Positions 13,651 through 55,068 of a stretch of 64,000 bases of DNA are shown here, one piece after another. Numbering within the stretch: position 1 is the stretch's first letter; the number at the start of each line of letters is the position of its first letter. Made by a program: the position numbers and the translations under genes. The DNA lies in assembly GCA_034440635.1 (NCBI GenBank), contig JAOTON010001356.1, positions 82,501 to 146,500 of the forward strand, written 5' to 3'. The notes under the pieces are model-generated. The model had not been told where the DNA came from. It ran no database searches and worked only from the letters and a program-made list of their open reading frames with translations. The DNA comes from Lepas anatifera (taxonomy: Eukaryota > Arthropoda > Thecostraca > Lepadidae).

Positions 13651-14795
<1,145 letters not shown>

Positions 14796-24942: not shown

Positions 24943-24966
24943 GATCTTTCTCCTTGCTCAGGTAAG
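24943..24966 (+). promoter_or_regulatory. Consensus recursive-type splice site before exon 1
   Basis: A pyrimidine-rich tract CTTTCTCCTTGCTCAG is followed directly by GTAAGA. Acceptor and donor consensus are fused, which is the form of a ratchet point. It may instead be an ordinary acceptor of a 5' UTR/first coding exon running to 25104. Confidence 0.5.
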
Positions 24967-25020
24967 ATGCATACGAGATATTGCTTAAGGGGGTGTTGGT
25001 AGAAGTTAAAAAGTTCTATC

Positions 25021-25104
25021 ATGCCTATCCATAACCAAGAGGTGACGTCGAGTAAGAGGAAATACCATAGCTTGCCACGACACTGCAAGCCATGCAACTC
25101 TCAG
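25021..25104 (+). CDS. F-box/WD40 exon 1 (start codon)
   Basis: 28 codons from an ATG, ending CAG before a perfect GTAAGT donor. The peptide is short and basic (SSKRKYHSLPRHCKPC). The exon probably begins at 24962, after a strong pyrimidine tract and CAG, so 24962-25020 would be 5' UTR. A short upstream ORF starts at the ATG in 24967-24969. Phase 0 matches exon 2. Alternative: an internal exon with a further upstream start. Confidence 0.6.
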
Positions 25105-28100
25105 GTAAGTACTGGCTGATGTTATACACTCATCCAGAATGTCGGCACATTGCGTGTTATATTTCTAGGAGGAGTGGGGGTGTTGTAGGATTTTACATGA
25201 CTTGGCTTGAAAGCGTAATGACCTCTATTGCTTCTTCTAGGAGCTAACTAAGCCTTAAATTGTCGTGCATGATATCGTACAACTTTTAAGTGACGAGACA
25301 CCATGGCTATTGGCTCAGCTTAAATCTAAAGAATTAAGCGGAACATGTTGAATTGCGAATTGAACAGTCGTCTGTCATTCGCAAGAAGACAGGATATATA
25401 TGCTGGATCTTAGTTGTAGCAGTATATTTAGCCGAACCGCTGACGTTGGCAGATAATCTCGCCTCGACTGGTTTGTGTCCGGGACTTTCGGATCAAGCTG
25501 AGCGCCTTCCAGCTGTGGTTCCGCGAGTTTGATGACGACCAGAAGAACACCGTTCTCCAGGAACTCATGGTACTGGTCCTCTCCGCGGAAACTGGCCTAG
25601 TTCTTAGCTGCTTGATGCTCTGTATGCTGTCATTAATGAGAAAATGACAGAGAAAACAAAAATACAATTTCTTAATTATTTGTGGCATCGGTCAAGAAGC
25701 TTTTCAGATAAGATGCTCTCTTACGCGAACTTCACCTTTCGCCAATCTTGTAAATAATGTCGTTCTCGAAATTCCTCTCAACAGGAATAGTGTTGGCTAC
25801 GCTATATAGCCCTAGCAGTGAAGGCTTGGGTAAACTCCAACAGTTATTTTCACCCTGATGCCAAATTCAAGGCTGAATCCTCTCATCGGAGAAAGCATTC
25901 AAAGTTGCATAGAAAACAAGCACACCCTGTGTGTGTTTGATAACATTCCTCCGGCACCTCGTATGTGGCAGATGCATCTCTTCCGGTGTCCAGTGCGATC
26001 CTTCCAATCACTGCCCTTTCCGCTTAATACCGGGTTCTAGTTTGACAATCCGATCTCTAACTTTTTTGCTAGCATTTGCTGTCTTGATTGTCGTATTAGA
26101 GCTATGCAGGTGTGCTCATCCGTAAGTGGACAGTGGGCCTGTAACGGCCATGGGCGCGCTCTGACGAGGCCGTGCCTCCTGTTCTGCGGCTCTGACGAGG
26201 CCGTGCCTCCTGTTCTGCGGCTCTGACGTGGCCGTGCCTCCTGTTCTGCGGCTCTGACGTGGCCGTGCCTCCTGTTCTGCGGCTCTGACGTGGCCGTACC
26301 TCCTGTTCTGCGGCTCTGACGTGGCCGTGCCTCCTGTTCTGCGGCTCTGACCTGGCCGTGCCTCCCGTTCTGCGTGGCCAGGGTCTGTGCGGCCCAGCGC
26401 AGAACCACCTGCTGTCGGTGCGACTGCAGGACTCGCTGCACGAGCGCTGTCCGCCCAACTGCCAGGACCTGCTCTCTTGGCTGCCCGGCCACGTGGTACA
26501 CGCCATCCTCAGCTACCTGGACCCCGTCAGCCTGGCCAGGGCCGGCGCTGTCTGCAGGTCAGCAGTGTTGTTGTCGCCCAAAGTGAGGTGCAATTTGTGC
26601 TTTGTCTGTGTGCCCAACACCATGCGAATATGAAGTTTGTGACGGTCAATTCTGACTCTCGTTAATAATGGCGTTGTTTAATTGCTGAATATGTATTTTC
26701 TTTGGAAACATTCTAGAGTTCCACAGTCTTTCATACGAGAGTCATCGTGAGCTTCTATGCCCCTTGACACGGCAGCAGGATGGGACGTGCCCAGCTCTGT
26801 CGGCCGGTGTTTACCGCTTCTGTCTCCGTGGCGGGAGTTGACCTGTCTCCTGTGGTCGGCGCTCTGTCGGCCAGTGTTTACCGCTTCTGTCTCCCTGGCG
26901 GCGGAGTTGACCTGTCTCCTGTGGTGGGCGCTCTGTCGGCCAGCGTTTACCCGCCTCTGTCTCCGTGGCGGCGGAGTTGACCTGTCTCCTGTGGTCGGCA
27001 GGCAGTGGCGCTCTCTGGCCGGCGGCCGCGGTCTCTGGCAGCGGCTCTGCGCCCGCGCCGAGTGGCAGGTCTCCCCGGAGACGCACCAGAAGCAGCTGGA
27101 GGAGCTGACCGGTGCCGACGGCAGGGTCAACTGGAAACAGGTCGGACAGTGCTGCAGGGTAGACGCGAGCGGGAAATCGTGCTCCAGTGGCTGTGTTTTA
27201 CCATCATAATGTCGCCTTGCAGACTTGCAGGTTTCTCTGTATAAACGTCTGCGTTTTTTTTATTTTTTGTCTTGCTTCTTTTATAGTAATAGACGCAGCG
27301 GGTCTAGAGATGTGAGTGGAACTAAGGGTTTAATGTGCCCATGTATTGTAATTCAGCACCGACAGAACTGGCGCGTGTGTGCGGTGTGCGTTCACCGTGG
27401 TGAGCCGCGGCAGCTGACTGGCCGCCGCCGCCGTCAGGTGTTTATCCAGCGGTACCGGCTGCGACGCAACTGGCTGCTGGGCCACTGCCACGTGCGCACC
27501 TTCGAGGGCCACGGCCAGGGCATCTCCTGCGTCCAGTTCGACGACACGCGCATCGTCAGCGGCTCACATGACAACAGTATTAAGGTAACAGCCTCTTCAA
27601 CATCGGCTCTGACCGACCTGCATGTCGATTTCTTTTCTTTTTCTTTTTTTGTAAACCTTGAAGTGATGGTGATGCCTTTATGGTGTCTAAACTGCGATAG
27701 TGTGAGCATATCGAACGGTCCCCGGCTCCAAATGGCCTTTGTCCGGGAATTCAGCGTTTCGTAAGGCCGTCTCCAAGGCGGCCAGCAGTCGCTACTCGGT
27801 GATGGGCCGCATCACGCCGGCTACACGGAGTGGTAGTGTGGGCTAAAGCTTACTTTTTCTCATGTAGTGGAACCGGCGTTGACTCGTTGGTACTTATGGG
27901 AACTTTTCACATGGTACTGGACCAGAGTTGTGATGTATTTTTACCCATTTCCAAGGCTTTTGCATCGCAGTCCATCTTAATGCAGCAGGGGACAAGTGCG
28001 GCTGCCGACACTCTTTCCGCTCTGGAGAGGCTTATCTCTACGCAAAGCTTTGGCCGAAACGAATGTGTCTTATGCAACAGTGTTTTTCAAAACTATTTGG

Positions 28101-31100
28101 TTTACAGGGAGGATTCTAAGTAAAGGGAAAACTACTTTGTATTGAGAACAATGTGGATTTTATGACAGAACATGTCGTCAATATATAACGGTCGAAGTGT
28201 TTGAGGCGTTTTGTGAGCTTAGGTTCAGATCATTAACGGAGGGTCCCGCTGCCGTAATAGTCACGCCGACTTCCAATCTGCCATTTTTGCGTCAAATCAA
28301 TCTCAAGCCAGGAGGGACACGTGGATGTTGTCGTTTTGCAGCTCGCTACGAATTACATGGGTAAAATGTGTAATTCTTCTGCACTAGCAATACATTTTGT
28401 TCCGACCTACATTTTGTTCTGACGTACATTTTGTTCCGACGTTTTTGCCGACGTACATTTTGTTCCGACAGGTGTGGAACATCCGCACCAACTCGCCCTG
28501 GTCGGTGATGACTCTGCTGGGCCACTCCGGCACCGTCCGCTGTCTGCACCTGCTGGAGAACAGGCTGGTCTCCGGCTCCACCGACACCACCATCAAGGTG
28601 GGTCCCTCCTCCGACAGACTGGACTCTGACACCACCGTCAAGGTGGGTCCCTCCTCAGACAAACTGGACTCTGACACCACCGTCAAGGTGGGTCCCTCCT
28701 CAGACAAACTGGACTCTGACACCACCATCAAGGTGGGTCCCTCCTCCGACAGACTGGATTCTGACACCACCGTCAAGGTGGGTCCCTCCTACAAACTGGA
28801 CTCTGACACCACCATCAAGGTGGATCCCTCCTCCGACAGACTGGATTCTGACACCACCGTCAAGGTGGGTCCCTCCTCCGACAAACTGGACTCTGACACC
28901 ACCGTCAAGGTGGGTCCCTCCTCCGACAGACTGGACTCTGACACCACCGTCAAGGTGGGTCCCTCCTCAGACAAACTGGACTCTGACACCACCGTCAAGG
29001 TGGGTCCCTCCTCCGACAGACTGGACTCTGACACCACCGTCAAGGTGGGTCCCTCCTCAGACAAACTGGACTCTGACACCACCGTCAAGGTGGGTCCCTC
29101 CTCCGACAGACTGGACTCTGACACCACCGTCAAGGTGGGTCCCTCCTCAGACAAACTGGACTCTGACACCACCATCAAGGTGGGTCCCTCCTCCGACAGA
29201 CTGGACTCCGACACCACCATCAAGGTGGGTCCCTCCTCCGACAGACTGGACTCTGACACCACCATCAAGGTGGGTCCCTCCTCCGACAGACTGGATTCTG
29301 ACACCACCATCAAGGTGGGTCCCTCCTCCGACAGACTGGACTCTGACACCACCGTCAAGGTGGGTCCCTCCTCCGACAGGCTGGACTCTGACACCACCGT
29401 CAAGGTGGGTCCCTCCTCCGACAAACTGGACTCTGACACCACCATCAAGGTGGGTCCCTCCTCCGACAGACTGGACTCTGACACCACCATCAAGGTGGGT
29501 CCCTCCTCCGACAGACTGGACTCTGACACCACCATCAAGGTGGGTCCCTCCTCCGACAGACTGGACTCTGACACCACCGTCAAGGTGGGTCCCTCCTCAG
29601 ACAAACTGGACTCTGACACCACCATCAAGGTGGGTCCCTCCTCCGACAGACTGGACTCTGACACCACCGTCAAGGTGGGTCCCTCCTCAGACAAACTGGA
29701 CTCTGACACCACCATCAAGGTGGGTCCCTCCTCCGACAGACTGGACTCTGACACCACCGTCAAGGTGGGTCCCTCCTCCGACAAACTGGACTCTGACACC
29801 ACCGTCAAGGTGGGTCCCTCCTCCGACAGACTGGACTCTGGCACCACCGTCAAGGTGGGTCCCTCCTCCGACAGACTGGACTCTGACACCACCATCAAGG
29901 TGGGTCCCTCCTCCGACAGACTGGACTCTGACACCACCGTCAAGGTGGGTCCCTCCTCCGACAGACTGGACTCTGACACCACCGTCAAGGTGGGTCCCTC
30001 CTCCGACAGACTGGACTCTGACACCACCGCCAAGGTGGGTCCCTCCTCCGACAGACTGGACTCTGACACCACCGTCAAGGTGGGTCCCTCCTCCGACAGA
30101 CTGGACTCTGACACCACCGTCAAGGTGGGTCCCTCCTCAGACAAATTGGACTCTGACACCACCATCAAGGTGGGTCCACTCCAACAGCGCCGCTGGCTTC
30201 TGCAGGCCAAAAGATGTAACGCCGTAAACTTTCACGGCCGTAAGATGGTCAACTCCTCAGGCACCGCTTGTGGCCTATATAGCGTATAATAGCGATCATT
30301 TATTAACTTTGATATAGCGTTATATTGATGTGGTGATCTATTTCAGCCCCATTTATCGGTGGAACACATTCCCTTCTAACCTGTTGGAAACTGGGTTTTA
30401 TGGTTTGCTATCCTTAGCATGACAATTTTATTTACGTTTTCGGAGGAGTCAAATTAATACCGTGTGCACCGAATAGTACACTTTTATTTATTTATTTATT
30501 TATTCAGCAGGATCGCCAACAGATAAATCCAGTTCAGGTAAGTCCAGGCATTAAAGCGTATTTACAGTGGAACACATCAGACAGTATACATACTAACAAG
30601 TAATAGGTAAAAATAAAAATGAAAACAATTGAAAAGTAAAATTTGAATGGGCTTAGAAAGAGATCGCGGTAAAATTGCGGTAAAATCGCGCACCATAAAA
30701 GTAAAATAAGACGTAAAGGCCTAAAAGATGAACCAGCACGGCCAAAAGCCTCACAACCTTGCCACATATCTTATAATATGGTTTCTGTGAGTGGCCTTAC
30801 TGCCAGCAGAGCTTTACTGTTGAATTTTGACGTCATTTGCAAAAATATCGGCTTCAACATCACGGCTGAATAAAAACATGTTGAGAGCCTCGGGAGGCGA
30901 CAAAGATGCCGCTCTGTACGTGTTGACGCGTGCTCGGGGAATAACAACGTCAGGTTGCGGGCCGATCGGGCAGGCACCTGCAAGAAAAAGCGCTGAGCAG
31001 AGCAGGTACATCGAGCTTTGCACGGATTACATTTCTAGTAAAATTAAATCGTGCTGTACCCTCCGTGCAGCGGAGAAGAAATTTTGAAATGTGTTAGAAG

Positions 31101-34100
31101 ATGCTCGTAGAGAGAGAGTGCTTGTCCAGATGGAATGTGGTGGATAAGCCACGAAGAAGCTTATGTTGAACCCGATCGACCCGAACCTTGTGGGAGTCAG
31201 CCGCCCCCGCCCAGACAACGCTGCAATATTCTAAAATAGAACGCACGTTGCAGTAGTATGCAGCCGCGAGCTTTACTGTTGAATTTTGACGTCATGAGAC
31301 CGGTCTGAAAGATCGAATGAGTAATCCGAGAGATCGATTGGCCCGCTTAACTATAGTATCTACATGATTGGCAAGGTGAGTTTAGAATCGATTATGACAC
31401 CAAGATCACGAATTGTTTCAACGTGCTCCAGCACCGAGGGGCCTATAAAGTAGTTTTCCGGACGGGTGCGCGCCTGAGGGTCATCGTCAGAATTTGCATT
31501 TTGATGGATTTAGTGTTAGTCCTCACCTGACAGACCACGCTGCGAGGCGGTCAAAGTCCCCCTTCAGCAGCCGTCCATCAGATTGTGACTTAATTTTTCG
31601 AAAAATTTTGACGTCTTCGGCGTACATGAGGCAGCCGCTCTGAATGAGGTCCGGAAGGTCATTTATGTACAGAGAAAAGAGCAAAGGGGCCAGAAGGCGC
31701 CTTCAGGCACACCAGAAGTTACAGGTCTCCAATCGAAATTTTTCCGTTGACGATGACCCTCTGACGCCTATCGGAGAGGTACGAGACGAACCATGTTAGG
31801 GCTGTGTCCTGGAGATGATATGATTGTTTTAGTTTGTGAATTACGTACGTCAGTACGAATTTTGTCGTATAACTGAGGCCCCATTGTTGAATATTCAGTT
31901 TCTACGCATACTGTGGACGAAGGGCAGCTATTGGGCCTTAGCTACGTCGTTCCACCTGTTGTAGCTTTCGACAGCCCTTGAACACGTGCGCTGGAGAACA
32001 CAGGACCTGATCAGACACATCCCTTTTTACTTCTGACTTTACTACACACCAACGTCGGGGAAGTGGCGTCGGGGGGCTCCAAATTCTGTCTAGACTGATA
32101 GCTGGGCTCGAACCTGCTATCATTTGCAGCGCTGCCGGAGGTCACGTGTTTTGATCGGAACGCGCACTATCCAGCTGTTTCATCCATACCCCTCCGATGG
32201 GTTAAATTATCGCCAGGCATGACCCGATCTGACCTTTCGAAGGTATTGTTCTTACTGGCCCAGAAGCAATATTCCTGGTCTGATGTCATTTAGGCGTGTG
32301 ACCCTCTCCGCGCAGGAGCAGTGGATCTGACGTATTTCTATGGCCGGCGAGTCTGGAACCTATACGCAGGAGCTGTGTGCCGCAAAATGACCGAGGCTTT
32401 CCACACGCCCAAAAAACACCACCGAGCTGTGTGCCAATCGATTGCGAGCCATGTGATTATTTCACCATGTATTTTAACGCTGCATGCGATTTTTGGCATG
32501 CGGAAAAGCCCTGAAAAGGCCTTTAGAACAGGTGTTGGACCTCTCCACGCAGGAGCAGTGTACCTGACGTGGTCCGATGTCCGCAGTGTGGGACCTCTCC
32601 ACACAGCAGCAGTGTACCTGACGTGGTCCGATGTCCGCAGGTGTGGGACCTCTCCACGCAGGAGCAGTGTACCTGACGTGTTCCGATGTCCGCAGGTGTG
32701 GGACCTCTCCACGTAGCAGCAGTGTACCTGACGTGTTCCGATGTCCACAGGTGTGGGACCTCTCCATGCAGGAGCAGTGTACCTGACGTTTTTCGATGTC
32801 CGCAGGTGTGGGATCTCTCCACGCAGCAGCAGTGTACCTGACGTGGTCCGATGTCCTCAGGTGTGGGATCTCTCCACACAGGAGCAGTGTACCTGACGTG
32901 GTCCGATGTCCGCAGGTTTGGGACCTCTCCACGCAGCAGCAGTGTACCTGACGTGTTCCGATGTCCGCAGGTGTGGGACCTCTCCACGCAGGAGCAGTGT
33001 ACCTGACGTGTTCCGATGTCCGCAGGTGTGGGACCTCTCCACGCAGGAGCAGTGTACCTGACGTGTTCCGATGTCCGCAGGTGTGGGACCTCTCCACGCA
33101 GGAGCAGTGTACCTGACGTGTTCCGATGTCCGCAGGTGTGGGACCTCTCCACGCAGGAGCAGTGTACCTGACGTGTTCCGATGTCCGCAGGTGTGGGACC
33201 TCTCCACGCAGCAGCAGTGTACCTGACGTGTTCCGATGTCCGCAGGTGTGGGACCTCTCCACGCAGGAGCAGTGTACCTGACGTGTTCCGATGTCCGCAG
33301 GTGTGGGACCTCTCCACGCAGGAGCAGTGTACCTGACGTGTTCCGATGTCCGCAGGTGTGGGACCTCTCCACGCAGGAGCAGTGTACCTGACGTGTTCCG
33401 GTGTCCGCAGGTGTGGGACCTTTCCACGCAGGAGCAGTGTACCTGACGTGTTCCGATGTCCGCAGGTGTGGGACCTCTCCACGCAGGAGCAGTGTACCTG
33501 ACGTGTTCCGATGTCCGCAGGTGTGGGACCTCTCCACGCAGGAGCAGTGTACCTGACGTGTTCCGATGTCTGCAGGTGTGGGACCTCTCCACGCAGCAGC
33601 AGTGTACCTGACGTGTTCCGATGTCCGCAGGTGTGGGACCTCTCCACGCAGCAGCAGTGTACCTGACGTGTTCCGATGTCCGCAGGTGTGGGACCTCTCC
33701 ACGCAGCAGCAGTGTACCTGACGTGTTCCGATGTCCGCAGGTGTGGGACCTCTCCACGCAGCAGCAGTGTACCTGACGTGTTCCGATGTCCGCAGGTGTG
33801 GGACCTCTCCACGCAGCAGCAGTGTACCTGACGTGTTCCGATGTCCGCAGGTGTGGGACCTCTCCACGCAGCAGCAGTGTACCTGACGTGGTCCGATGTC
33901 CGCAGGTGTGGGACCTCTCCACGCAGCAGCAGTGTACCTGACGTGGTCCGATGTCCGCAGGTGTGGGACCTCTCCACGCAGCAGCAGTGTACCTGACGTG
34001 TTCCGATGTCCGCAGGTGTGGGACCTCTCCACGCAGCAGCAGTGTACCTGACGTGTTCCGATGTCCGCAGGTGTGGGACCTCTCCACGCAGCAGCAGTGT

Positions 34101-37100
34101 ACCTGACGTGTTCCGATGTCCGCAGGTGTGGGACCTCTCCACGCAGCAGCAGTGTACCTGACGTGTTCCGATGTCCGCAGGTGTGGGACCTCTCCACGCA
34201 GCAGCAGTGTACCTGACGTGTTCCGATGTCCGCAGGTGTGGGACCTCTCCACGCAGCAGCAGTGTACCTGACGTGTTCCGATGTCCGCAGGTGTGGGACC
34301 TCTCCACGCAGCAGCAGTGTACCTGACGTGTTCCGATGTCCGCAGGTGTGGGACCTCTCCACGCAGCAGCAGTGTACCTGACGTGTTCCGATGTCCGCAG
34401 GTGTGGGACCTCTCCACGCAGCAGCAGTGTACCTGACGTGTTCCGATGTCCGCAGGTGTGGGACCTCTCCACGCAGCAGCAGTGTACCTGACGTGTTCCG
34501 ATGTCCGCAGGTGTGGGACCTCTCCACGCAGCAGCAGTGTACCTGACGTGTTCCGATGTCCGCAGGTGTGGGACCTCTCCACGCAGCAGCAGTGTACCTG
34601 ACGTGTTCCGATGTCCGCAGGTGTGGGACCTCTCCACGCAGGAGCAGTGTACCTGACGTGTTCCGATGTCCGCAGGTGTGGGACCTCTCCACGCAGGAGC
34701 AGTGTACCTGACGTGTTCCGATGTCCGCAGGTGTGGGACCTCTCCACGCAGCAGCAGTGTACCTGACGTGTTCCGATGTCCGCAGGTGTGGGACCTCTCC
34801 ACGCAGGAGCAGTGTACCTGACGTGTTCCGATGTCCGCAGGTGTGGGACCTCTCCACGCAGGAGCAGTGTACCTGACGTGTTCCGATGTCCGCAGGTGTG
34901 GGACCTCTCCACGCAGGAGCAGTGTACCTGACGTGTTCCGATGTCCGCAGGTGTGGGACCTCTCCACGCAGGAGCAGTGTACCTGACGTGTTCCGATGTC
35001 CGCAGGTGTGGGACCTCTCCACGCAGGAGCAGTGTACCTGACGTGTTCCGATGTCCGCAGGTGTGGGACCTCTCCACGCAGGAGCAGTGTACCTGACGTG
35101 TTCCGATGTCCGCAGGTGTGGGACCTCTCCACGCAGGAGCAGTGTACCTGACGTGTTCCGATGTCCGCAGGTGTGGGACCTCTCCACACAGGAGCAGTGT
35201 ACCTGACGTGTTCCGATGTCCGCAGGTGTGGGACCTCTCCACGCAGGAGCAGTGTACCTGACGTGTTCCGATGTCCGCAGGTGTGGGACCTCTCCACGCA
35301 GGAGCAGTGTACCTGACGTGTTCCGATGTCCGCAGGTGTGGGACCTCTCCACGCAGGAGCAGTGTACCTGACGTGTTCCGGTGTCCGCAGGTGTGGGACC
35401 TCTCCACGCAGGAGCAGTGTACCTGACGTGTTCCGATGTCCGCAGGTGTGGGACCTCTCCACGCAGGAGCAGTGTACCTGACGTGTTCCGATGTCCGCAG
35501 GTGTGGGACCTCTCCACGTAGCAGCAGTGTACCTGACGTGTTCCGATGTCCGCAGGTGTGGGACCTCTCCACGCAGGAGCAGTGTACCTGACGTGTTCCG
35601 ATGTCCGCAGGTGTGGGACCTCTCCACGCAGCAGCAGTGTACCTGACGTGTTCCGATGTCCGCAGGTGTGGGACCTCTCCACGCAGCAGCAGTGTACCTG
35701 ACGTGTTCCGATGTCCGCAGGTGTGGGACCTCTCCACGCAGGAGCAGTATACCTGACGTGTTCCGATGTCCGCAGGTGTGGGACCTCTCCACGCAGGAGC
35801 AGTGTACCTGACGTGTTCCGATGTCCGCAGGTGTGGGACCTCTCCACGCAGCAGCAGTGTACCTGACGTGTTCCGGTGTCCGCAGGTGTGGGACCTCTCC
35901 AGCGTACCTGACGTGTTCCGATGTCCGCAGGTGTGGGACCTCTCCACGCAGGAACAGTGGTCGAGTATGTCGTGTAAGGTGACGATGGTGGGACACTCGG
36001 ACACCGTCCGCTGCGTGCAGGTCAGTCAGCTGTAGTACAGGTTAGTCCGATGCCGTACTGGTCAGTCCGCTGTCGTGCAGGTCAGTCCGCTGTCGTACAG
36101 GTCAGTCCGCTGTCCTACAGGTCAGTCCGATGCCGTACTGGTCAGTCCGCTGCTGTACTGGTCAGTCCGCTGTCGTACAGGTCAGTCCGATGTCGTGCAG
36201 GTTAGTCCGCTGTCGTACTGGTCAGTCCGATGCCGTACTGGTCAGTCCGCTGTCCTACTGGTCAGTCCGATGCCGTACTGGTCAGTCCGCTGTCCTACAG
36301 GTCAGTCCGATGCCGTACTGGTCAGTCCGCTGTCCTACAGGTCAGTCCGATGCCGTGCAGGTTAGTCCGCTGTCGTACTGGTCAGTCCGATGCCGCACTG
36401 GTCAGTCCGCTGTCGTGCAGGTCAGTCCGCTGTCGTACTGGTCATTTCTGATGTGTAAGGCCTAGTCGCTGTCCTGCAGTTAAGACTCCGATTATCGAAC
36501 CGAGACGTCCGCTGCCTACGGGTGGAAGGTGGATGGCTTGAAATTTAAAGGGACTGTCGCACCTGGTCACAACGTCCGATTTTAACTGAGATAGCCAAGT
36601 TGTAAAGCAGGTCGGAAAACCCGGTACTCCATATTGGTCATTTGACTTGGAACTCGAATTTCCGTAGAAAAAGCTAAAACCTACCTGACACCAGCCCCTC
36701 AGTCCCTGTCGCACGGGTGGCCATTGTTGTCAGCTGCTGGTGTGACGACAGTATGCTGACGTCACGATGAGCATCAGCCAATCGAAGCCCTTGAAGCGTT
36801 TCAAGTATGGTAATGGTTGCCAGATCGTGACATCATCCACAGTCAGATTTTTCTTTTTCTAGAGGAGTATTTTTAAAACCAATATTGAGCTTATTGTACT
36901 TTTTCAGAGAAATCATGAGTGTTTTCATTATTTTTACTAAAGTACGCCTAATTACACTAAATTCCGGGATTCGTCCAAGGTGCTAGGCTCGAACCTTTAA
37001 GGGAGCAAACGAAAGACGGCGTTTACAGGAGTGATGCTTAAAACAAAGCCGATATCACCCTCCATACAGCTCGATACTGAGTGAAAGTCCCTGCTATTTT

Positions 37101-45595: not shown

Positions 45596-45631
<36 letters not shown>

Positions 45632-45634
45632 GAT

Positions 45635-45674
<40 letters not shown>

Positions 45675-45675
45675 C

Positions 45676-45717
<42 letters not shown>

Positions 45718-45732
45718 GAGAGAGAGAGAGAG

Positions 45733-45822
<90 letters not shown>

Positions 45823-48800
45823 GGGTCACGTTAGGTACAGCTCCATTCCACCGTCTGCATAAACAACGAAGTGAGGCACGAATCCACCGTCTGCATAAAC
45901 AAGGAAGTGAGGCACGAATCCACCGTCTGCATAAACAAGGAAGTGAGGCACGAATCCACCGTCTACATAAACATGTGGCTCTGATAGGGAAGTCAAGTAA
46001 AGATCCATCGTTCGTCAAAAAAGGAGCAACAGACCAATCGGATAGGGCCCGGGGTGTTTCTCAAAAATATTTTATGCAAGAATCGGTAACCCGAATGAAG
46101 ACCATCAGACTGACTTACAGCCTAAGTGACGAGTGTTTGAGGAGAAACCCACGTATTTGTATAAATTCGCCTCACATTTCACACAAACGAAAAGTTTCAC
46201 CTGAACATGTACACTATAAACTGGGGCAGCGTACATTTAAAACGAGCACAGGGCAGTACCTGGAGAAGGCGGCCCCGGTCATCGAACTCCTCGTCAGTGA
46301 AGGCGAGATCGAAGGCAGCCAACTCCTCGGCTGAGCAGCTCTCAATCAGCGTCACTTTGGTGCGGTAGAGCTCCCGGTCGTCCTGCTCAAAGTGCTACCA
46401 CCCAGACACCGTGACGATGGCGTGGGAGTTGAAGCGATTTACTCAATTCCGCAGATAAGCATACTCACTTCATTTGATTCAATTAATCGAGCCTTTGAGA
46501 GTTGAAAGACCACGATGCGCACACATTCAGACTCGATTCATTTTACCCTGCTTCGTCCATAAAAATATTGCCCTCAAGTCTAATAATAATAATAGTGGTC
46601 CTGCAGGATTCATCACTGTGGTTGGCGGTGTAGAAAAGAATGCTGCATGGGCGCCATATGACCCAGCTGTCGGTGCGCCCAAAAACCCCAACAATGATGA
46701 AAAGAATGCTGCAGAGCGTGCAAATCATTCACCTCCGGCATCCCACTGAGACCGGACAGACCACCAACTACGTCAACACAGTGTCTTCCTCCACTCAACT
46801 CATCGACTCTGAAACACTCCCGTCGGTTCACCAACCAGATCCAGCCAATCAGCTCACCTTGTACGTGACCCGCAGTCCAATGAGCTGCGCCAGAAACGAG
46901 CGGGAAAAGTTGGCGCGCACCAGCTGGCGGGCGGCGGCACCCTGAGAACTCTCCAGCAGACATTTGCCGGCCACCCGGCCGGCAAACTCGAAATGGCGCA
47001 GCTTCAGCGCTGGAGGGCGCCGCCAGTTCGGGTGCACCAGAGCCTGGCCACCACAGGGCGGCGTTAGAGGACAGCTCTCAGATGAGGCAAACAGAACATG
47101 CCTGCCTCTGATGGGAGGGGAAGAAGATGCGAGACACAGAGATGAGAGGGAGCGAGAGGAGAGGTCATATGATGGGCGGGAGTGGCAGACCGAGAGGTGG
47201 GGAGGTGAGGAGGAAGATAAATAGGGAATGAAAGAGATAGAGAAATGGGAAAGATGACGGAGAGGACGGGATGGAGTGGGCGAACGTGAGAATGAGTGAG
47301 CGAGTAAGAGAGCGTGAATGGGCACGAGAAATGTATCGAGGGATAACGAAATGGACAGACGATGAACATCTTGAAGACATTGCAAATTAAGAAGAAGACG
47401 AGCATCTAAATTTTACGATTACTCGAATAGCTACATGCCACTGACGTTTCGTACACTGACGTTTCGCCAATGGTCGGAGTTCGTACCTGCTGGTCCGATT
47501 CATCGAGAGGGATGAAGAGCTTGCTTCGCGGCTCGAACATCTCCTGACAGAGCAGTTCGAACCACTCGCGCCGTACGCCGCCGTAGTCGAGCGCCTCCTC
47601 GTCGTCGAACCTGCAGCACAGAGCGACGGCGAGGGTGAAGAGAGTGACGCAACTTACTGATCCACAGGTACGGCAGCAGCCACAATTTATGTTCAAAATG
47701 TTTTCATTGCATTCACTTCGTCGCCACGTCATGTCGTTTGGCCGCTTTCGTAAGGTGTCACGTCCAAACCAAATACGTCACTGTTCATCGATACCCATAC
47801 AAGATCGCGAAACCCGGGCTCAAAGAATGATACCATTAACGGGTGTCATTTCATCAATCATCATACAACTGTTGTACACAAATGGCAACAAGAGCCCTCT
47901 TAAAACCGAAAACTATGCTCAGAATGACGTTCTCCATTTCAACTGGCATTATATTTCCAGCGCCACTGGCAAAAGACCCTACCCCAAAATGAAGCATACA
48001 TATGTTTCGCCCCGCATCCTCACTTAATCTCGAAGGGCCGGGCCCAGTCGGAGGCGGAGGCTCCCCGCAGCGCGGCCATTGAGGACTCCAGCAGGGCGGC
48101 GCGGCGCACGGCTAGTGTGAGCCGGCGTCTCGCGCGGCCCCCCGACACCAGCCTCCGCTCCAGCTCGCGGTACAGGTGGCGCCGCTTGTCGGCAAACGTC
48201 TCACTGCCTCCCACGTTCCTGAGCAGGAAGTGGGCGAAGGTGGCGGCCATGGTGTCCCGATCCTTCAGCGCCAGCTCCACGGTCGGCTGGCAGCCGTCCG
48301 TCACCAGCAGAGACGGCATGCTGATGGCGTTGTTCTCGTTGCTGGGGGTCAGCCGGGTGCTGGGACACAGCCGGAACGTGAACAGCTTGCGCTGGATGAA
48401 GAAGAGCAGCGTGTCACGAACGGTGAGCTGCTTGGGCGAGACGGCGCACCAGACGTCGCGTCGTTTGTTGAGCGGCCGGCCGTCGACGGCGGTGAGCGTG
48501 GCAGAGAAGGAGACGCCGCGCGCCTCCACGTGCTTCCGCACCGCCGTCATGTTGTAGGCTGCGGGTCACGACACACTTCAGCCCGTCATCTCTCACCGAG
48601 GCGCAGAATCATGATGACACTATTGTGAATATTAAAATCGTCTGAGTGTCAATAGTATGTAACTGATCGACTTCTAGATACACTTCAAGTGAGACAATTC
48701 AAGTTGTTAAGATATTGCTTTAGTCGGTTAATGAGGGCTTTGTTCCAATCTCTACATGCAAGCTAGATATAGTAAAGTAACAGAGCATATTCCTATCAAT

Positions 48801-51800
48801 TGATAAAACACATGGTGTTTTCCTACAGCCTGAACCAGATCACAATATTAAACTTCACTATATCTAGCCTGGGGAGAACTTCTCTTACATAGTCTGTGGG
48901 GACAAAACCACTGTCTACCGAATTTCCACACATATATGGGTACATTGCCGGAAAAAATTCAAGGGCAATAGGGCGAACCCTGCGACAACCTGTATTCCAC
49001 ACTATTGATGAAATTCTACACTTGCTAGGTGTGGTGCATTTATGAGATCCAGAATCAAGTTCAGATGCGAGGACAGCTATGTGCCCGAACAGCAGCCATG
49101 CAAAAATGGTGATTCCTTGACTGCATCTCTTCTCGACTTTCACATCATTATCCACAAGATTAACTATTCATACACATTGCTTTCGCTTAGAAACTAGGCA
49201 TATCACTCTTCTGGGACACATTTGCTGGGGGAGAACGCCTGGAGCCGCGGCGTTACAGCAGCTGCACCGTTGCCTCACCACTGAGCACGATGAGGTAGAA
49301 GTCTCCGTTGCGGATGGGCTGGCCGTCGTAGGTGATCTTGGCGCGGAAGCAGCCCTCGCGAGACAACACCAGCCGCAGTCGCACCCGCCGTCCATCCAGC
49401 TCCAGCTGTTCGTACGGCAACACCGGCCGCGCCGAGTCCAGCTACGGGGAGGCAGGGTCACCGGCCGCACCAGGCCCAGAGGGGGAGGCAGGGGTCACCA
49501 GCCACACCGAGTCCAGCTACGGGGCGAGGCAGGGGTCACGGCCACACCAGGCCCAGAGGGGGAGGCAGGGGTCACCAGCCACACCGAGTCCAGCTACGGG
49601 GCGAGGCAGGGGTCACCGGCCACACCGGGCCCAGAGGGGGAGGCAGGGGTCACCGGTCACACCAGGCCCAGAGGGGGAGGCAGGGGTCACCGGCCACACC
49701 AGGCCCAGACGGGGAGGCAGGGGTCACCGGCCACACCACGCCCAGAGGGGGAGGCAGGGGTCACCGGTCACACCAGGCCCAGAGGGAGAGACAGGGGTCA
49801 TCGACCACACCAGGCCCAGAGGGAGAGGCAGGGGTCATCGACCACACCAGGCCCAGAGGGGGAGGCAGGGGTCACCGGCCACACCAGGCCCAGAGGGGAG
49901 GCAGGGGTCACCGGCCACACCAGGCCCAGACGGGGAGGCAGGGGTCACCGGCCACACCACGCCCAGAGGGGGAGGCAGGGGTCACCGGTCACACCAGGCC
50001 CAGAGGGAGAGACAGGGTCATCGACCACACCAGGCCCAGAGGGAGAGGCAGGGGTCATCGACCACACCAGGCCCAGAGGGGGAGGCAGGGGTCACCGGCC
50101 ACACCAGGCCCAGAGGGGGAGGCAGGGGTCACCGGCCACACCAGGCCCAGAGGGAGAGGCAGGGGTCACCGGTCACACCAGGCCCAGAGGGGAAGGCAGG
50201 GGCCACCGGTCACACCAGGCCCAGACGGGGAGGCAGGGGTCACCGGCTACACCACGCCCAGAGGGGGAGGCAGGGGTCACCGGCACACCAGGCCCAGAGG
50301 GCGAGGCAGGGGTCACCGGCCACACCGGGCCCAGAGGGGGAGGCAGGGGTCACCGGTCACACCAGGCCCAGAGGGGAGGCAGGGGTCATCGACCACACCA
50401 GGCCCAGAGGGGAGGCAGGGTCACCGGCCACACCAGGCCCAGAGGGGGAGGCAGGGGTCACCGGCCACACCAGGCCCAGAGGGGGAGGCAGGGGCCACCG
50501 GTCACACCAGGCCCAGAGGGGAAGGCAGGGGTCACCGGCCACACCAGACCCAGAGGGGAAGGCAGGGGTCACCGGCCGCACCAGGCCCAGAGGGGGAGGC
50601 AGGGGTCACCGGCCACACCGGGCGGGGCTGAGAGCAAGAGTCATCGTAGGTTGCCCGGCAGGCACTATAATAGTGAAAAACCTGACGATGAAAAACCTAA
50701 GTCTGATGGTGGAGGCCAGGATCAGAAGCACATTACCCCCAGCCGACAGTCCTGGTGCTATCCAAAGGAGCGCTAACTCCGTCTGGATCCGTAACAGCCC
50801 ACCACGGTCACGAAAAAGAAAAAGACCACGGCGAAAACATAACAAACATGGAGGCAAAGGGCGCAAGAGCTGTGACAATATCGCAATCCGGTGCAGTCGG
50901 TCTGACACCACACTACTTCATCAGAACAAACACAAACACAAACAACTGCACCACCCCACCAGCTACCTCGGAGACGGCGACGGCGAGCCGCGGCCGCACC
51001 TGCGGCCAGTCGGCGCGCTCGCAGCCGTTGTGGAAGCCGTCACGCATGTCCAGCAGCATGGGGTACGGCTGGCCCTGGGTCATCACCACCGTACTGCTGT
51101 GGCTGAGCACACAGCAGCAGCCGGCCTCCGGTAGATCTGCCAGACACCAGGGGGCGGTGTGACCAGGACTGACAAACACCCGATACAGTGTCCAGCCAGC
51201 GGGCTAGCACTGCCCTCAGGGCTGCTTTATGCGATCCGTGTTTATCGTTATCACGTATGTAAGAACCACCGGCGTCTAGGTATGTGAATTTTGTGACACC
51301 AGAAAACGACCTAGCTCCGCGGCCGTTACAGAAAAAACATAATGTTAACGAATTTGAGGGTGCAGTACTTCATTTTCGGGAATTCAATCCATAGCACCAT
51401 GTCTTGGTTTTTTCCTGATGCAACCTCCATTCAGACATCTAAATTCATTGAAACAAGTAAACATCTCGATATAAAAAACCAAATCATGCACAGATCCTTT
51501 TCACCCGCTTTTCCGTACCAGTTAGGATCGTCACGTGTAGACTGTGTGCCACGTGTTCAGTAATTCCTCACCAGCCAGGAAGTGTCGGGTGTAGGGACTG
51601 TGTGCCACGTGTTCAGTAATTCCTCACCAGCCAGGAAGTGTCGGTGTAGGGACTGTGTGCCACGTGTTCAGTAATTCCTCACCCGCCAGGAAGTGCCGTG
51701 TGTAGGGACTGTGTGCCACGTGTTCAGTAATTCCTCACCAGCCAGGAAGTGTCGGGTGTAGGGACTTGTGCCACGTGTTCAGTAATTCCTCACCAGCCAG

Positions 51801-54800
51801 GAAGTGTCGCGTGTAGGGACTGTGTGCACGTGTTCAGTAATTCCTCACCAGCCAGAAGTGTCGGATGTAGGGATTGTGTGTCACGTGTTCAGTAATTCAT
51901 CACCAGCCAGAAAGTGTCGGGTGTAGGGATTGTGTGTCACGTGTTCGTAATTCATCACCAGCCAGGAAACGTCGCGTGTAGGGACTTGTGCCACGTGTTC
52001 AGTAATTCCTCACCAGCCAGGAAGTGTCGCGTGTAGGGACTGTGTGCCACGTGTTCAGTAATTCCTCACCAGCCAGGAAGTGTCGGGTGTAGGGACTGTG
52101 TGCCACGTGTTCAGTAATTCCTCACCAGCCAGGAAGTGTCGGGTGTAGGGACTGTGTGCCAAGTGTTCAGTGATTCCTCACCAGCCAGGAAGTGCCGTGT
52201 GTAGGGACTGTGTGCCACGTGCCGGCCGGCCAGAGTGACGGTGATGTGGTAGACGCCGGCGGCCCGTACTGGGAAGGTGCAGGTGGCGCTGCTGCCGCGG
52301 CATTCGATAGCGCACGCCACCTGGGCATCTCCAACCCGCACGCGCACTTCCAGCGCCGAGGCACTTGCCTCCAGGCAGTAGGCACCACCATCCAGCCGCC
52401 ACGCCTGCCGGATAGGGACAACTGAATGGACTTGAGATAAGTCAAGACGATGGTGGAATAACTTTGAAAGAGCATGCCGTCCTCAAGCGTGGTACAGCAG
52501 AGGTCTCTTCACATAAATTGTGGTGAGACATTCGACAATGAGACACCAAATAAAACCAAAGGTTTTATTCACAGCAAACCTTGAAAGCATACATAGTCTG
52601 GTTTATCGAATCAGCCCAGTCAATGAGCCTTCCAGTGCCGCGTGCGGCAGTTCTTTCCCAGGTCCATTCGTGTCACCTTTTCCACTAAAAACGACATAAC
52701 ATGTTTGCACTGAGACATAGTACTGCCATTTTGTCGCTTCCTATCCACCCAAGACCAGAATATAACATCTCTGTGCTGAGTCCAGGTACCGCATCCAGTC
52801 GGGGCGGCGTCTGACCTGCACTGAGAGCGATACTGTGCCGCCGACCCTGCGCCGGTCCTGCCAGCGCAGCTGCACGCTGCAGCGCACCGTCATCTGCAGC
52901 AGCCTCTGCAGCGGCGCCGCCAGCGCGCGCCGGCCGGCCGCGTCCCGCGTCAGACGGTACACCAGGTCAGCCAGCAGCGCCGCGCTCACCGCCGCCGCCG
53001 CCCAGCCCAGCGCGCCTGCCACAGAGGCACCGGTCAGAGGGGTTCACATAGCCGCCGCCGCCCAGCCCAGCCTGACGCCTGCCACAGAGGCACCGGTCAG
53101 AGGGGTTCCCATCACGCCGCTGCCGCCGCCCAGCCCAGCGCGCCTGCCACAGGGGCACCGGTCAGAGGGGCTCAGTATCAGTACCATCCACTACAAAATC
53201 AACGGTTAGAGAACTTCTCATCAGAGAGGTTCGCTCCACAACATCGCCACGACCACCCCGTAAGACTTGTCCGAGACAAAGGGCTTACTCGTCAGATAGA
53301 TCCCCTCCACGACACCGCCATGGCCCCCGTAAGGCTTGTCTGAGACAGACCGCTGCCAGCCCTTACCCCAGCTGGTGTCGGCGGGCTCGGCCGCTGCCCG
53401 CATCTCTTCGAAGAGCTGACGCTTGAAGGAGTCCAGCTGGTCGGCGTTGGCAGCCAGCTTGGCCGTGGCTCGCACCAGGCCCGGCGACGCCTTCAGTACC
53501 AGGTCTTGCCATGCCAGCAGGTCATCCAGGCTCTCGATGTTGAGGGCGGCCAGCCTGAGCACGAATGTGGGACATCAGAAAGGAGGTCGGACGGAGAGCT
53601 CTCGTGATATGATAGGCTAGTAACAGGCTGTTCTGTTGCTAACAGAGCTTTGTAGCTCTACAAGGGTGATCCTCGAAGAAACACGAGGGAACATACATCC
53701 TGCTCAAGATGACTGGACTATATGACTAATGGCTGTGATTCAAAATTGGTAGATGCTCGAAACAAGCTAGCATGAGTTCAAGTTGAGCCCTGAGCCATAT
53801 CCACCTCCCATGAATCACACATTGCCCTATCCCTTGTTTTCCTCACATTCTACGTGGCCCAGTCCGGCATATAAATTCGCTAATACAGCCCAATCGTGAC
53901 GGCTTTAACCGTTCTCAAGTTCAACTTAAAACCAAATTGGGACAACAATATTGAATCCCAGCTGAATAAGTAGTGAAAGCAGTAAATTTAACTAGATCAC
54001 ACTATTCCTTTCCCGGAACCGCACACGCACATCATCAAAACCAGTTGATTGAAACCTTCCTTGAACCAACAATTGTTATCTGTAAAAAGGAGAAAGAATA
54101 ACTGCAAACTAACTCCACTATGTAAGTTCACAGTAGCCAATATCCATGTAATCAAAGCCAACACAAGCGTTTCTGCAAGCCACCACCAGCACTCACGTAT
54201 CAGCCTGCTGCTCCTGGCGAACCTGGACCAGCCAGAAGTTGAGGACGAGCTTGTTGTAGAGGCGGTGGGAGGCGGCCACCAGGCGCTCCCCGTCCCTCCC
54301 CGGGATGACTGGGATGGCACGCTCGTCAGCCAGGTCCAGCATTCCTCGTACCCCTGCGCGGCAGAAATACCTCACAGGCTGGCATTGGCGGACGCAGGGG
54401 GGGGGCATTTCGGCCATGCCCCCCAAAGCGCTGGAGGGGGGCAAACTATCTTTTGGCCCCCCAAACGCCGGAGAAATTTTTTGAAAAAGGTGTTTACACT
54501 AGGTCTGTAGAGCAAAAAATCTTCGCTCCCTCCCCGCCCCCCCGGAGAGCGATCATGTACTTGGAGAGATAGCTTATACTAGGTCTGTCGAGCCCTGAAA
54601 AGAAGGTGTTTACACTAGGTCTGTGGAGCAAAAAAATCGCTCCCACCCCCCCTCCCCTCAGGAGGAGAGGCAGACATGAGTTTGACCCCTCCCAAAACTC
54701 GGGTCTGCGTCCGCCCCTGCGGGCTGGCACATCTCCTCCGGCAGCCGCGCAGGCAACAGCAAGTCCCAGTATCACAAAGGAGCAGCAAGTTTGTCAATAG

Positions 54801-55068
54801 TTCAACCCGGTGTCTTTTTAAGGACGCTCAGCCTCCCAATACTGTATTCTACGCATCCATCCAAAGAAGCTAACCATCAAACAAGCATGTAGCTAGATTC
54901 TCTGCAAGATAACGCCAAAGCGGTCAAATTACCATGTTGACTGATGAGTTTGGCGTATATGGAGAGATTCTGTTCCGAGAGCCATTTGGCTACACCGGAA
55001 CTCAAGGGGGAGCTCTGAACCACCAGCTGCAGACGACGATGCACGCAAAGCAGACCCAGACCTTCATC
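43971..55068 (-). CDS. AREL1: AREL1-type HECT E3 ubiquitin ligase, 15 exons, 5' end missing
   Basis: Exons, 5' to 3': 55068-54933, 54353-54197, 53554-53367, 53015-52816, 52404-52182, 51136-50967, 49441-49279, 48558-48024, 47610-47487, 47043-46858, 46394-46260, 45472-45284, 44981-44855, 44559-44424, 44073-43971. They join in phase to 2772 bp (923 residues plus TAG). An N-terminal SAM-like helical stretch ([16 protein letters not shown]) is followed by a hydrophobic segment near residue 165 ([19 protein letters not shown]), a filamin-type Ig repeat (about 228-301) and a HECT domain (about 583-923). The catalytic Cys is residue 890, in HTCFNQICLP. In humans AREL1 ubiquitinates the IAP antagonists SMAC, HtrA2 and ARTS and restrains apoptosis; the same role here is inference. 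Human AREL1 begins at the hydrophobic segment, so this protein has an N-terminal extension. Exon 1 lacks an in-frame ATG, so an upstream exon is missing. Confidence 0.92.
44215..44355. mobile_element. Possible SINE relic in the last AREL1 intron
   Basis: Contains a perfect B-box-like palindrome CCAGGTTCGAACCTGG at about 44275-44290 but no convincing A-box. Low support. Confidence 0.25.
44424..44559 (-). CDS. AREL1: AREL1 exon 14 (HECT C-lobe)
   Basis: 44 full codons, [20 protein letters not shown] and FGALPVAHT, then TG of the catalytic Cys codon. LLQFTTG and LP-x-AHT are the classic HECT motifs before the catalytic Cys. The donor is GTCAGT. Confidence 0.95.
44855..44981 (-). CDS. AREL1: AREL1 exon 13 (HECT)
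   Basis: 42 full codons, [20 protein letters not shown] and [14 protein letters not shown]. The ELELLMCG motif is completed across the junction with exon 12. Phase 0 in, 1 out. Confidence 0.94.
45284..45472 (-). CDS. AREL1: AREL1 exon 12 (HECT)
   Basis: 63 codons, [50 protein letters not shown] and ELE. Phase 0 at both ends. The acceptor is CCTCCAG. A long (CT)n tract lies in the intron upstream on the coding strand. Confidence 0.95.
45591..45827. repeat. AREL1: (GA)n microsatellite in an AREL1 intron
   Basis: About 235 bp of GA with GATA, GGA and GACA interruptions. On the gene strand it is a long CT tract 120-350 nt upstream of the exon 12 acceptor. Confidence 0.95.
45838..45986. repeat. 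36-bp tandem repeat, ~4 copies
   Basis: Units contain CCGTCTGCATAAACAAGGAA and GTGAGGCACGAAT. It lies mid-intron between AREL1 exons 11 and 12 and does not touch an exon. Confidence 0.9.
46260..46394 (-). CDS. AREL1: AREL1 exon 11 (HECT N-lobe)
   Basis: 45 codons, [20 protein letters not shown] to [12 protein letters not shown]. The Y/H-FE-x-DD-x-E-x-Y-x-(S/T)K pattern matches the AREL1 family. Phase 0 at both ends. The donor is CAG before GTACTG. Confidence 0.93.
46858..47043 (-). CDS. AREL1: AREL1 exon 10 (HECT N-lobe)
   Basis: 62 codons, [32 protein letters not shown] and [15 protein letters not shown]. The F-x-GR-x-x-G-K-x-L motif is conserved in HECT ligases. Phase 0 at both ends. Confidence 0.95.
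47487..47610 (-). CDS. AREL1: AREL1 exon 9 (HECT N-lobe)
   Basis: 41 full codons, [20 protein letters not shown], the signature start of HECT N-lobes, then [11 protein letters not shown]. The acceptor is GCTGCAG and the donor CAG before GTACGA. Confidence 0.95.
48024..48558 (-). CDS. AREL1: AREL1 exon 8 (linker and HECT start)
   Basis: The longest exon, 177 full codons. It contains [40 protein letters not shown] and [11 protein letters not shown], all well conserved in AREL1, and the HECT entry [10 protein letters not shown]. The acceptor is CCCGCAG and the donor AA before GTGAGG. The tract is clean, with no repeat at either edge. Confidence 0.95.
49279..49441 (-). CDS. AREL1: AREL1 exon 7
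   Basis: 54 full codons, [20 protein letters not shown] to [20 protein letters not shown] and LIVLS, matching the vertebrate region with the motif I-x-N-G-x-F. The acceptor is CCCGTAG, and a 36-37-bp array derived from this boundary extends upstream. The donor is AGTG before GTGAGG. Confidence 0.9.
49445..50630 (-). repeat. AREL1: 36-37-bp array derived from the AREL1 exon 7 acceptor
   Basis: About 30 units upstream of exon 7 in gene direction. The units nearest the exon retain GTAG and CTGGACTCGG, that is acceptor plus exon start. Most others read CTCTGGGCCTGGTGTGGCC, a diverged form of the same exon start in which the AG is lost. On the plus strand the array makes a long open frame (49332-51134) that is not credible as coding. 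Confidence 0.88.
50967..51136 (-). CDS. AREL1: AREL1 exon 6
   Basis: 56 full codons, [20 protein letters not shown] to [10 protein letters not shown], including [15 protein letters not shown]. This corresponds to the second beta-rich region after the filamin repeat. The acceptor is CTGGCAG and the donor GAG before GTAGCT. Confidence 0.88.
51537..52181 (-). repeat. AREL1: 56-bp array of the AREL1 exon 5 donor (11 extra copies)
   Basis: Each unit on the gene strand contains CCCGACACTTCCTGGCTG, similar to the exon 5 end, followed by GTGAGGAATTACTGAACA. Donor copies fall about every 56 bp from 52120 to 51566. Two copies, near 51899 and 51953, have GTGATG instead of GTGAGG. Small indels occur in several units. 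Confidence 0.93.
52182..52404 (-). CDS. AREL1: AREL1 exon 5 (filamin-type Ig repeat)
   Basis: 74 full codons, [20 protein letters not shown] to [22 protein letters not shown] and RHFLA. The G-x-Y-x-I-x-V and SPY motifs are filamin-repeat hallmarks. Phase 0 in, 1 out. The donor GGCTG before GTGAGG is repeated 11 more times downstream in a 56-bp array. Confidence 0.92.
52816..53015 (-). CDS. AREL1: AREL1 exon 4 (hydrophobic segment)
   Basis: 66 full codons, [20 protein letters not shown] to [11 protein letters not shown]. The Ala-rich hydrophobic stretch matches the N-terminal membrane-type segment of vertebrate AREL1. The acceptor GTGGCAG is repeated with the exon start in a ~64-bp array upstream. 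The donor is CAG before GTCAGA. Confidence 0.88.
53016..53170 (-). repeat. AREL1: 63-65-bp repeats of the AREL1 exon 4 acceptor
   Basis: Acceptor copies lie at exon-start positions 53015, 53078 and 53143 (gene strand). Each is preceded by CCGGTGCCTCTGTGGCAG or a near match. Each extra copy is followed by GC-rich bases that copy the exon start (GGGCTGGGCGGCGGCGG). Confidence 0.85.
53367..53554 (-). CDS. AREL1: AREL1 exon 3
   Basis: 62 full codons, [20 protein letters not shown] to [10 protein letters not shown], a charged helical region. The acceptor is TGCTCAG and the donor TGGG before GTAAGG. Both split codons match their neighbours. Confidence 0.85.
54197..54353 (-). CDS. AREL1: AREL1 exon 2
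   Basis: 51 full codons: [20 protein letters not shown] to [11 protein letters not shown]. The acceptor is CGCGCAG and the donor ATAC before GTGAGT. A 337-bp hAT-type MITE sits about 30 nt upstream of this exon, between it and most of the intron. Confidence 0.85.
54385..54721. mobile_element. hAT-type MITE (337 bp) next to AREL1 exon 2
   Basis: Flanked by perfect GGCTGGCA at 54377-54384 and 54722-54729. The right end is TCTGCGTCCGCCCCTGC, which gives the hAT-like start CAGGGGCGGACGCAGA. The left end GGCGGACGCAGG matches it. The interior has two copies of GTTTACACTAGGTCTGT and G/C runs. Confidence 0.85.
54933..55068 (-). CDS. AREL1: AREL1 exon 1 found (internal; SAM-like start)
   Basis: Phase 0 in, 1 out. 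Encodes [17 protein letters not shown] and [20 protein letters not shown]. The acceptor is GTTTTCAG and the donor CATG before GTAATT. The WL-x-L-x-Y spacing resembles a SAM domain. No start codon in frame. Confidence 0.8.

Follow-up and report, generated by a model that had tools for sequence, protein, structure and literature searches.

Two convergent genes and the arrays at their junctions

We analysed a stretch of 64,000 nucleotides from Lepas anatifera (contig JAOTON010001356.1, positions 82,501 to 146,500; hereafter the window), in which positions 25021-55068 hold two convergent genes, an F-box/WD40 gene on the plus strand and AREL1 on the minus strand, that carry minisatellites at ten of their exon-intron junctions. 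Both gene models were rebuilt from the sequence. The F-box/WD40 gene (FBXW7-like; 25021-38940, +) has ten coding exons (25021-25104, 25453-25569, 26382-26557, 27002-27140, 27438-27584, 28472-28597, 35931-36020, 37229-37396, 37661-37847 and 38729-38940), and its predicted protein aligns with 87% full-length identity to the FBXW7-like protein of Amphibalanus amphitrite (among the best 120 of 4455 matches). AREL1 (43971-55068, -) has 15 exons, from exon 1 at 55068-54933 to exon 15 at 44073-43971; its predicted product is 73% identical to that of Pollicipes pollicipes and 63% identical to that of A. amphitrite (two matches in all), and the structures 6jx5 and 6loh, both of AREL1, match its HECT part. 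All introns of both models are GT-AG, a single continuous frame runs over the joins apart from a break in AREL1 exon 1, and the GC content at third codon positions is 0.85-0.88. Amphioxus was considered as the origin of this DNA and rejected, because the nearest proteins among the matches listed come from barnacles.

Using Tandem Repeats Finder (TRF; score at least 50, period at least 9) on 25021-55068, with seven overlapping rows merged and a 222-bp (GA)n microsatellite (45596-45817) excluded from the array count, we found 11 distinct minisatellites, ten of which overlap a splice junction or end at most 7 bp from one. They lie at the acceptors of exons 3, 4, 6, 7 and 10 and the donors of exons 6 and 7 of the F-box/WD40 gene, and at the acceptors of exons 4 and 7 and the donor of exon 5 of AREL1, the same ten junctions that had been named in the original prediction for this DNA. 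With three donors and seven acceptors, both 5' and 3' boundaries are involved. The accompanying claim that the arrays start exactly at the exon edge proved too strict, as by the TRF coordinates six of them run 15-40 nt into the exon and four end 2-7 nt before it. From the exon, all ten extend into the intron.

Within the F-box/WD40 gene (all +), the acceptor of exon 7 carries 62.6 copies of a 55-bp unit with about 29 exon and 26 intron nt (32529-35959), and the donor of exon 6 carries 35.6 copies of a 45-bp unit with 15 exon and 30 intron nt (28583-30182). At the donor of exon 7, a 20-bp unit with about 15 exon and 5 intron nt is present in 22 copies with a higher-order period of 80 bp (36006-36444), and at the acceptor of exon 10, a 46-bp unit with 18 exon and 28 intron nt is present in 11.7 copies with a higher-order period of 92 bp (38210-38746). 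Three further arrays stop just before their exons: at the acceptor of exon 3, a 31-bp array of 7.0 copies (26158-26374) leaves a gap of 7 bp, and gaps of 2 bp separate a 69/70-bp array of 3.0 copies (26794-26999) from the acceptor of exon 4 and a 17-bp array of 4.9 copies (28391-28469) from that of exon 6. In AREL1 (all -), the donor of exon 5 has 12.3 copies of a 56-bp unit with 40 exon and 16 intron nt and a higher-order period of 111 bp (51540-52221), the acceptor of exon 4 has 2.9 copies of a 62/63-bp unit with about 26 exon nt plus intron sequence including the AG (52990-53174), and the acceptor of exon 7 has 31.8 copies of a 37-bp unit (49446-50623). The eleventh array, 3.5 copies of a 36-bp unit (45847-45973, -), is located in AREL1 intron 11 away from junctions, 286 bp from donor 11 and 374 bp upstream of the acceptor of exon 12.

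Copy number thus reaches about 62 and array length 3.4 kb, and the arrays take up about 8.5 of the 20.8 kb of intron (8,760 bases when the GA tract is included). Arrays are borne by ten of the 23 introns in the two genes; nine of the ten have a single array, F-box intron 6 has arrays at both ends, and 192-2346 bp of unique sequence remains in these introns. At a lower TRF cut-off, six more tiny repeats (period at least 9) appear in the span, one of them 2 bp from a junction, one exon-internal and four elsewhere; the junction pattern is therefore confined to the stronger arrays, since the weak extra repeats mostly lie elsewhere. The one close to a junction, a two-copy 15-bp repeat at 44984-45014 that is 2 bp away from the exon 13 acceptor of AREL1, is perhaps an array at its start.

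Two further observations concern the genes themselves. In AREL1 exon 1 (55068-54933, -), the ATG, which opens a Pollicipes-like start, and the remainder of the exon stand in frames one base apart, the shift falling near five consecutive Cs, and this is either a homopolymer assembly error or a real frameshift. The A. amphitrite records of AREL1 and the FBXW7-like gene share the same longest contig figure (1,114,017 bp), from which the linkage of the two genes is probably conserved in barnacles.

Unit content, splice-site copies and reading frame

Each unit was aligned to 60 exon bases at each of the 47 exon edges, and the unit's own exon ranks first for six of the 11. The expectation that most units would hold the splice site together with adjoining exon bases is borne out: exon and intron bases over the splice site are clear in seven of the 11 arrays, all at junctions, probable in one and unclear in three, two of which are at junctions. 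One of the seven, at AREL1 acceptor 7, qualifies by only its two exon-proximal copies, which keep the acceptor and a sequence resembling the exon start (18 of 21 nt in the best alignment); its consensus unit takes second rank and has no acceptor AG. The unit at F-box acceptor 4 gives a weaker, gapped alignment over 38 exon nt (rank 4 of 47) and probably derives from a diverged start of exon 4. No clear exon bases are visible in the units at F-box acceptors 3 and 6 (ranks 29 and 44). The 36-bp unit of the displaced array matches AREL1 acceptor 12 at 10 of 11 bases (rank 2 of 47), with another junction scoring higher. When 46 junctions were tested for hidden duplications, 11 reached p<=0.05, and nine of these were already array-bearing; the other two were AREL1 acceptor 12, which faces the displaced array, and AREL1 donor 4, with a 10-nt match. 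Acceptor 3, though array-bearing, missed the threshold. There is thus little sign of hidden duplications at the array-free junctions among the 46.

Comparing the 11 units with each other, only one pair (F-box acceptor 3 and AREL1 acceptor 7) reaches a local score of 24, and eight of the 11 have no better match elsewhere in the window than the top one of ten self-shuffles, those at acceptors 3, 4 and 6 matching slightly better. Since the units share little with each other or with the rest of the window, the comparison supports the earlier proposal that the arrays would have arisen independently, each from its own junction. Introners or transposon-type introns, in which the same sequence stands at many introns, were not found in this within-window comparison. 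Mean pairwise unit identity is 84-97% in the seven arrays that were cut into units. The higher-order periods of 80, 92 and 111 bp, together with an identity that alternates by lag in the 20-, 45- and 46-bp arrays, fit the duplication of multi-unit blocks.

All 35 units of the exon 6 donor array have the GT, as do 21 of 22 rows of the exon 7 donor array (the other begins with a gap) and 11 of 12 rows of the AREL1 exon 5 donor array (the remaining row is the exon end). Likewise, the AG is kept in 61 of 62 copies at the exon 7 acceptor (the other has a one-base gap), in 11 of 11 at the exon 10 acceptor and in both full units at the AREL1 exon 4 acceptor. To compare strength, sites were taken by their GT or AG within a mismatch limit, a few being possibly out of register, and were scored with a small matrix built from the 23 donors and 24 acceptors of both genes. 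Counting the real site, 35 of 36, 8 of 22, 9 of 14, 58 of 62, 12 of 12 and 2 of 3 sites in six arrays score at least as high as the real one. As many copies score as high, the real site is not marked by its local strength in most of these six arrays; in all ten junction arrays it is the innermost one.

Reading on in the exon frame meets a stop inside the array in seven of the ten junction arrays, and no stop interrupts the frame in the arrays at F-box acceptors 4 and 6 or in any of the 35 units of the exon 6 donor array. The latter (28583-30182) covers 1.6 kb with 15 codons per unit in the exon register, one unit being 6 bases shorter, and if its donors were used, a variable number of 15-residue repeats would stand between WD40 blades. 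Splicing may proceed normally despite the copies, as far as the continuous reading frame of the models and the related proteins tell. The F-box model, aligned with five arthropod proteins (taken as relatives, with no separate test of orthology), is gap-free at every array junction, and at the three array junctions of AREL1 the Pollicipes and Amphibalanus proteins have no array-sized insertion; at the exon 3/4 join, these two barnacle proteins show a 1-residue gap beside the join and a 2-3-residue gap nine residues upstream. Because the related proteins have no inserted units there, the innermost splice sites are probably the ones used.

Placement of the arrays against chance

To be read with the following statistics is that they come from one window and two genes, picked for their striking look. 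If the arrays are placed uniformly, leaving out positions that are entirely exonic, 1.5 of the 11 are expected to include exon sequence or come within 10 bp of it, and ten were observed (P 1.6e-8). This 10-bp criterion was used for the count of ten, and the variant that requires an exon base in the placed segment was dropped because a distance of 2-7 bp separates four of the ten arrays from their exons. With array ends alone, 4, 6 and 7 of 11 lie within 10, 15 and 25 bp of a junction, where 0.7, 1.0 and 1.6 are expected (P 0.003, 0.0002 and 0.0003).

Composition accounts for part of this excess. GC content is 66% in exons, 48% in unique intron and 62.5% in the arrays, and when candidate positions were matched to the GC of each array in two ways, with exons protected, the expectation rose to 3.8 and 5.0 of 11 (P of ten or more 1.3e-5 and 6.2e-4). 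Junction-spanning units number seven, against 2.8-4.3 expected under the same matching (P 0.0024 to 0.057). The GC-matched null is conservative because a unit that spans exon sequence is GC-rich for that very reason. Within the window, then, the idea that array edges coincide with exons beyond chance stands, and GC-rich exons plus protection of exons explain a good part of the clustering, perhaps not all of it.

Outside the gene span (34 kb), eight minisatellite loci reach a TRF score of at least 50. Also located there is a 23-bp minisatellite at 11289-12607, whose unit includes CAGGTGAG and which starts at the end of an open reading frame (ORF; 10814-11299) that lies outside both gene models, looks LINE-like by eye and has no Pfam match. 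A strong 20/40-bp array beside an AG microsatellite (13666-14748) is also outside both models. Two more ORFs, at 55714-56511 (-) with an RNase H match of 24.8 bits, just below the Pfam cut-off of 25.8, and at 61790-62935 (+) with a PHD-finger match of 25.1 bits (cut-off 24), are probably transposon remnants.

Probable mirage-type arrays and competing explanations

Serial expansion at established junctions on this scale had been put forward as not known to be described, which does not hold in general, since the mirages of amphioxus are of the same kind. These minisatellite-like tandem duplications of exon-intron boundaries in Branchiostoma are reported in Adh3, the globins BflGb6 and BflGb9, troponin C and PGBD5, and the passages that describe them state that their length varies, call their origin unclear and propose them as a source of new introns (PMC3087553; PMC3902484). 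They are reported not to disturb splicing (PMC3087553), and are treated in the same passages as a possible general cephalochordate phenomenon of unclear mechanism. As described there, mirages, like the barnacle arrays, are located at 5' or 3' boundaries, have a locus-specific unit length (10-72 bp in Adh3, 150-160 bp in the globins) and consist of many copies with AG/GT. The barnacle arrays differ in belonging to an arthropod, in affecting ten junctions of two adjacent genes and in reaching up to 62 copies and 3.4 kb, compared with the 6 and 3 units given for two BflGb6 haplotypes. Reverse-transcription PCR of splicing, haplotype variation and somatic instability are on record for mirages in those passages, whereas the barnacle arrays are known from one assembly. 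Set against the features of mirages, the arrays show a boundary location in 10 of 11 cases, a clear exon-plus-intron unit in seven of 11, both boundary types and units that are boundary-specific within the window.

Turri et al. reportedly described in 1995, going by the title, a minisatellite that gives multiple splice donor sites in a human interferon-induced transcript, the gene being IFI6; the repeated donors resemble those of the barnacle arrays, but at a single locus. In human duplicated genes, minisatellites at exon-intron boundaries are described as changing gene structure (PMC2812944); as far as that account goes, it concerns recent primate paralogs in which repeats alter exons or form novel introns, whereas proteins related to the barnacle ones have no inserted units at the junctions. 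No report of junction arrays from barnacles or other crustaceans was found in the open-licence full-text literature, among the matches listed and as far as titles, abstract starts and term counts tell, and the passages on repeats, introns and splicing examined in barnacle genome papers do not mention junction repeats.

The same anatomy in amphioxus mirages, which are reported not to disturb splicing, supports the reading that these are mirage-type minisatellites in a crustacean, tolerated as exon definition picks the innermost pair of splice sites, and on the whole we consider this probable. The starting point would be the tandem duplication of a short piece of DNA that crosses or meets an exon edge; slippage or unequal exchange, acting again and again and separately for each junction, would then lengthen the array on the intron side. 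Exon-internal duplications would be removed because they change the protein; those across a junction would be tolerated because the spliceosome, under exon definition, would pair the innermost acceptor and donor, leaving the other copies intronic. Exon definition is an established concept, and innermost sites are the ones it would select. GC-rich exonic DNA amid AT-richer introns would appear as the favoured substrate, and the exon-rich segments able to expand would be the edges.

Several points weigh against this reading. Simple competition between sites often favours whichever donor is closest to the 3' site and whichever acceptor comes first downstream of the branch point, which would pull the arrays into the mRNA, and the copies in the 20-bp array are mostly weaker donors than the real one. 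The clustering of ten of the 11 arrays exceeds what GC content and exon protection give even in the matched placements, and purely intronic duplications should be equally silent, yet only one of the 11 arrays is intron-internal. Further, in five arrays the exon part of the units has no gradient of similarity with distance from the exon (the figures for the 20-bp array are unreliable owing to a one-base offset), and the intron part has gradients of opposite sign in two of the five (rho 0.37, p 0.03; rho -0.37, p 0.003). The idea of a polarity gradient, which would have marked repeated copying from the junction itself, was accordingly rejected.

A possible but distinctly less likely alternative is that exon-intron junctions are themselves duplication hotspots in this lineage, through DNA breaks coupled to transcription or splicing or through a splice-consensus motif, with composition being secondary. 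The excess persists over the conservative GC-matched placement, donors and acceptors are both affected, and a hand count of strong arrays (TRF at least 200, microsatellites excluded) gives 10 for the 30.0-kb gene span, of which nine are at junctions, versus 2 for the 34.0 kb outside. Against it, GC skew is inconsistent over the 11 arrays (-0.24 to +0.23), a G-quadruplex motif is absent from all 11, and the hairpin signal is inconsistent (z-scores -2.2 to +2.3). AT skew on the coding strand is negative in nine of the 11 arrays, which is also expected from pyrimidine-rich intron ends. R-loop, G-quadruplex and hairpin signatures were discarded, none being consistent over the 11 arrays, and only two genes of a window picked for its look are concerned, with the eight minisatellite loci lying outside them. 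The earlier suggestion that duplication may be coupled to splice sites or to transcription is tentative, and a share of the bias falls to GC content and exon protection. It is a comparably tentative proposition that barnacles have, independently of amphioxus, a process targeting splice junctions as such, so that exon edges genome-wide shed arrays of functional decoy sites. If true, this process would continually supply new introns and exons and let introns grow, and it would offer a natural experiment on how one of dozens of equally strong sites is chosen by exon definition.

It is improbable that the arrays are under selection, with decoy splice sites or variable intron length regulating both E3-ligase genes. 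The splice dinucleotides are present in nearly all copies of six arrays, and the exon 6 donor array is open in frame throughout its 1.6 kb. This retention is only mildly unexpected at such low divergence, the product of fractions being about 0.05 over the four arrays whose own site is invariant (a product of 0.02 includes a fifth array whose own site is not), which makes selection preserving the dinucleotides a weak candidate. Periods are multiples of three in four of the 11 arrays, near the one third expected by chance, and not in the other seven, for which reason selection for in-frame units was rejected; moreover, the AG is lost from the consensus unit at AREL1 acceptor 7, and the Amphibalanus FBXW7-like protein has no inserted units. 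Similarly improbable is mere ascertainment, i.e., that minisatellites are common in this genome and the window was chosen for its junction arrays. One window with two genes was indeed picked for its look, and minisatellites also occur in the 34 kb outside; the placement, however, is improbable even when GC-matched, and six of the 11 units rank first of 47 at their own exon.

It is still less likely that the arrays are what is left of an intron gain in which AGGT-containing exon segments were duplicated in tandem. Such intron gain is described for Drosophila (PMC2891723) and potato (PMC4974935), the exon-derived sequence in the barnacle introns lies beside the splice sites, and both systems, as far as those accounts describe theirs, are tandem duplications of splice-site-like segments. 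In that model, a single duplication of a proto-splice site yields a new intron, whereas the barnacle introns have serial arrays at one end. Nine of the ten have one array only, and long stretches of unique sequence remain in them; an origin of both intron ends from the same segment was not seen at F-box intron 6, where the end units are unalike (old, decayed similarity was not sought otherwise). An assembly artefact, with misplaced reads or inflated arrays, would fit the one-base frame break near the C run in AREL1 exon 1 and is equally unlikely, as the units differ mutually, three arrays have higher-order periods, and ten units at ten correct junctions are hard to misassemble, even if lengths might still be wrong.

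In essence, the arrays of the two barnacle genes are a feature of mirage type, densely present in a lineage that is new for it and distant from amphioxus. Such arrays are likely to cause trouble for gene annotation and for assembly from short reads. With the anatomy of mirages found in a crustacean, in ten of the 23 introns of two genes, two questions can be tested in another animal group, far removed from the first. One is whether splice junctions attract duplication or are only GC-rich sites at which an array can grow without damage; the other is by what rule the spliceosome selects one site where dozens of copies match the real one.

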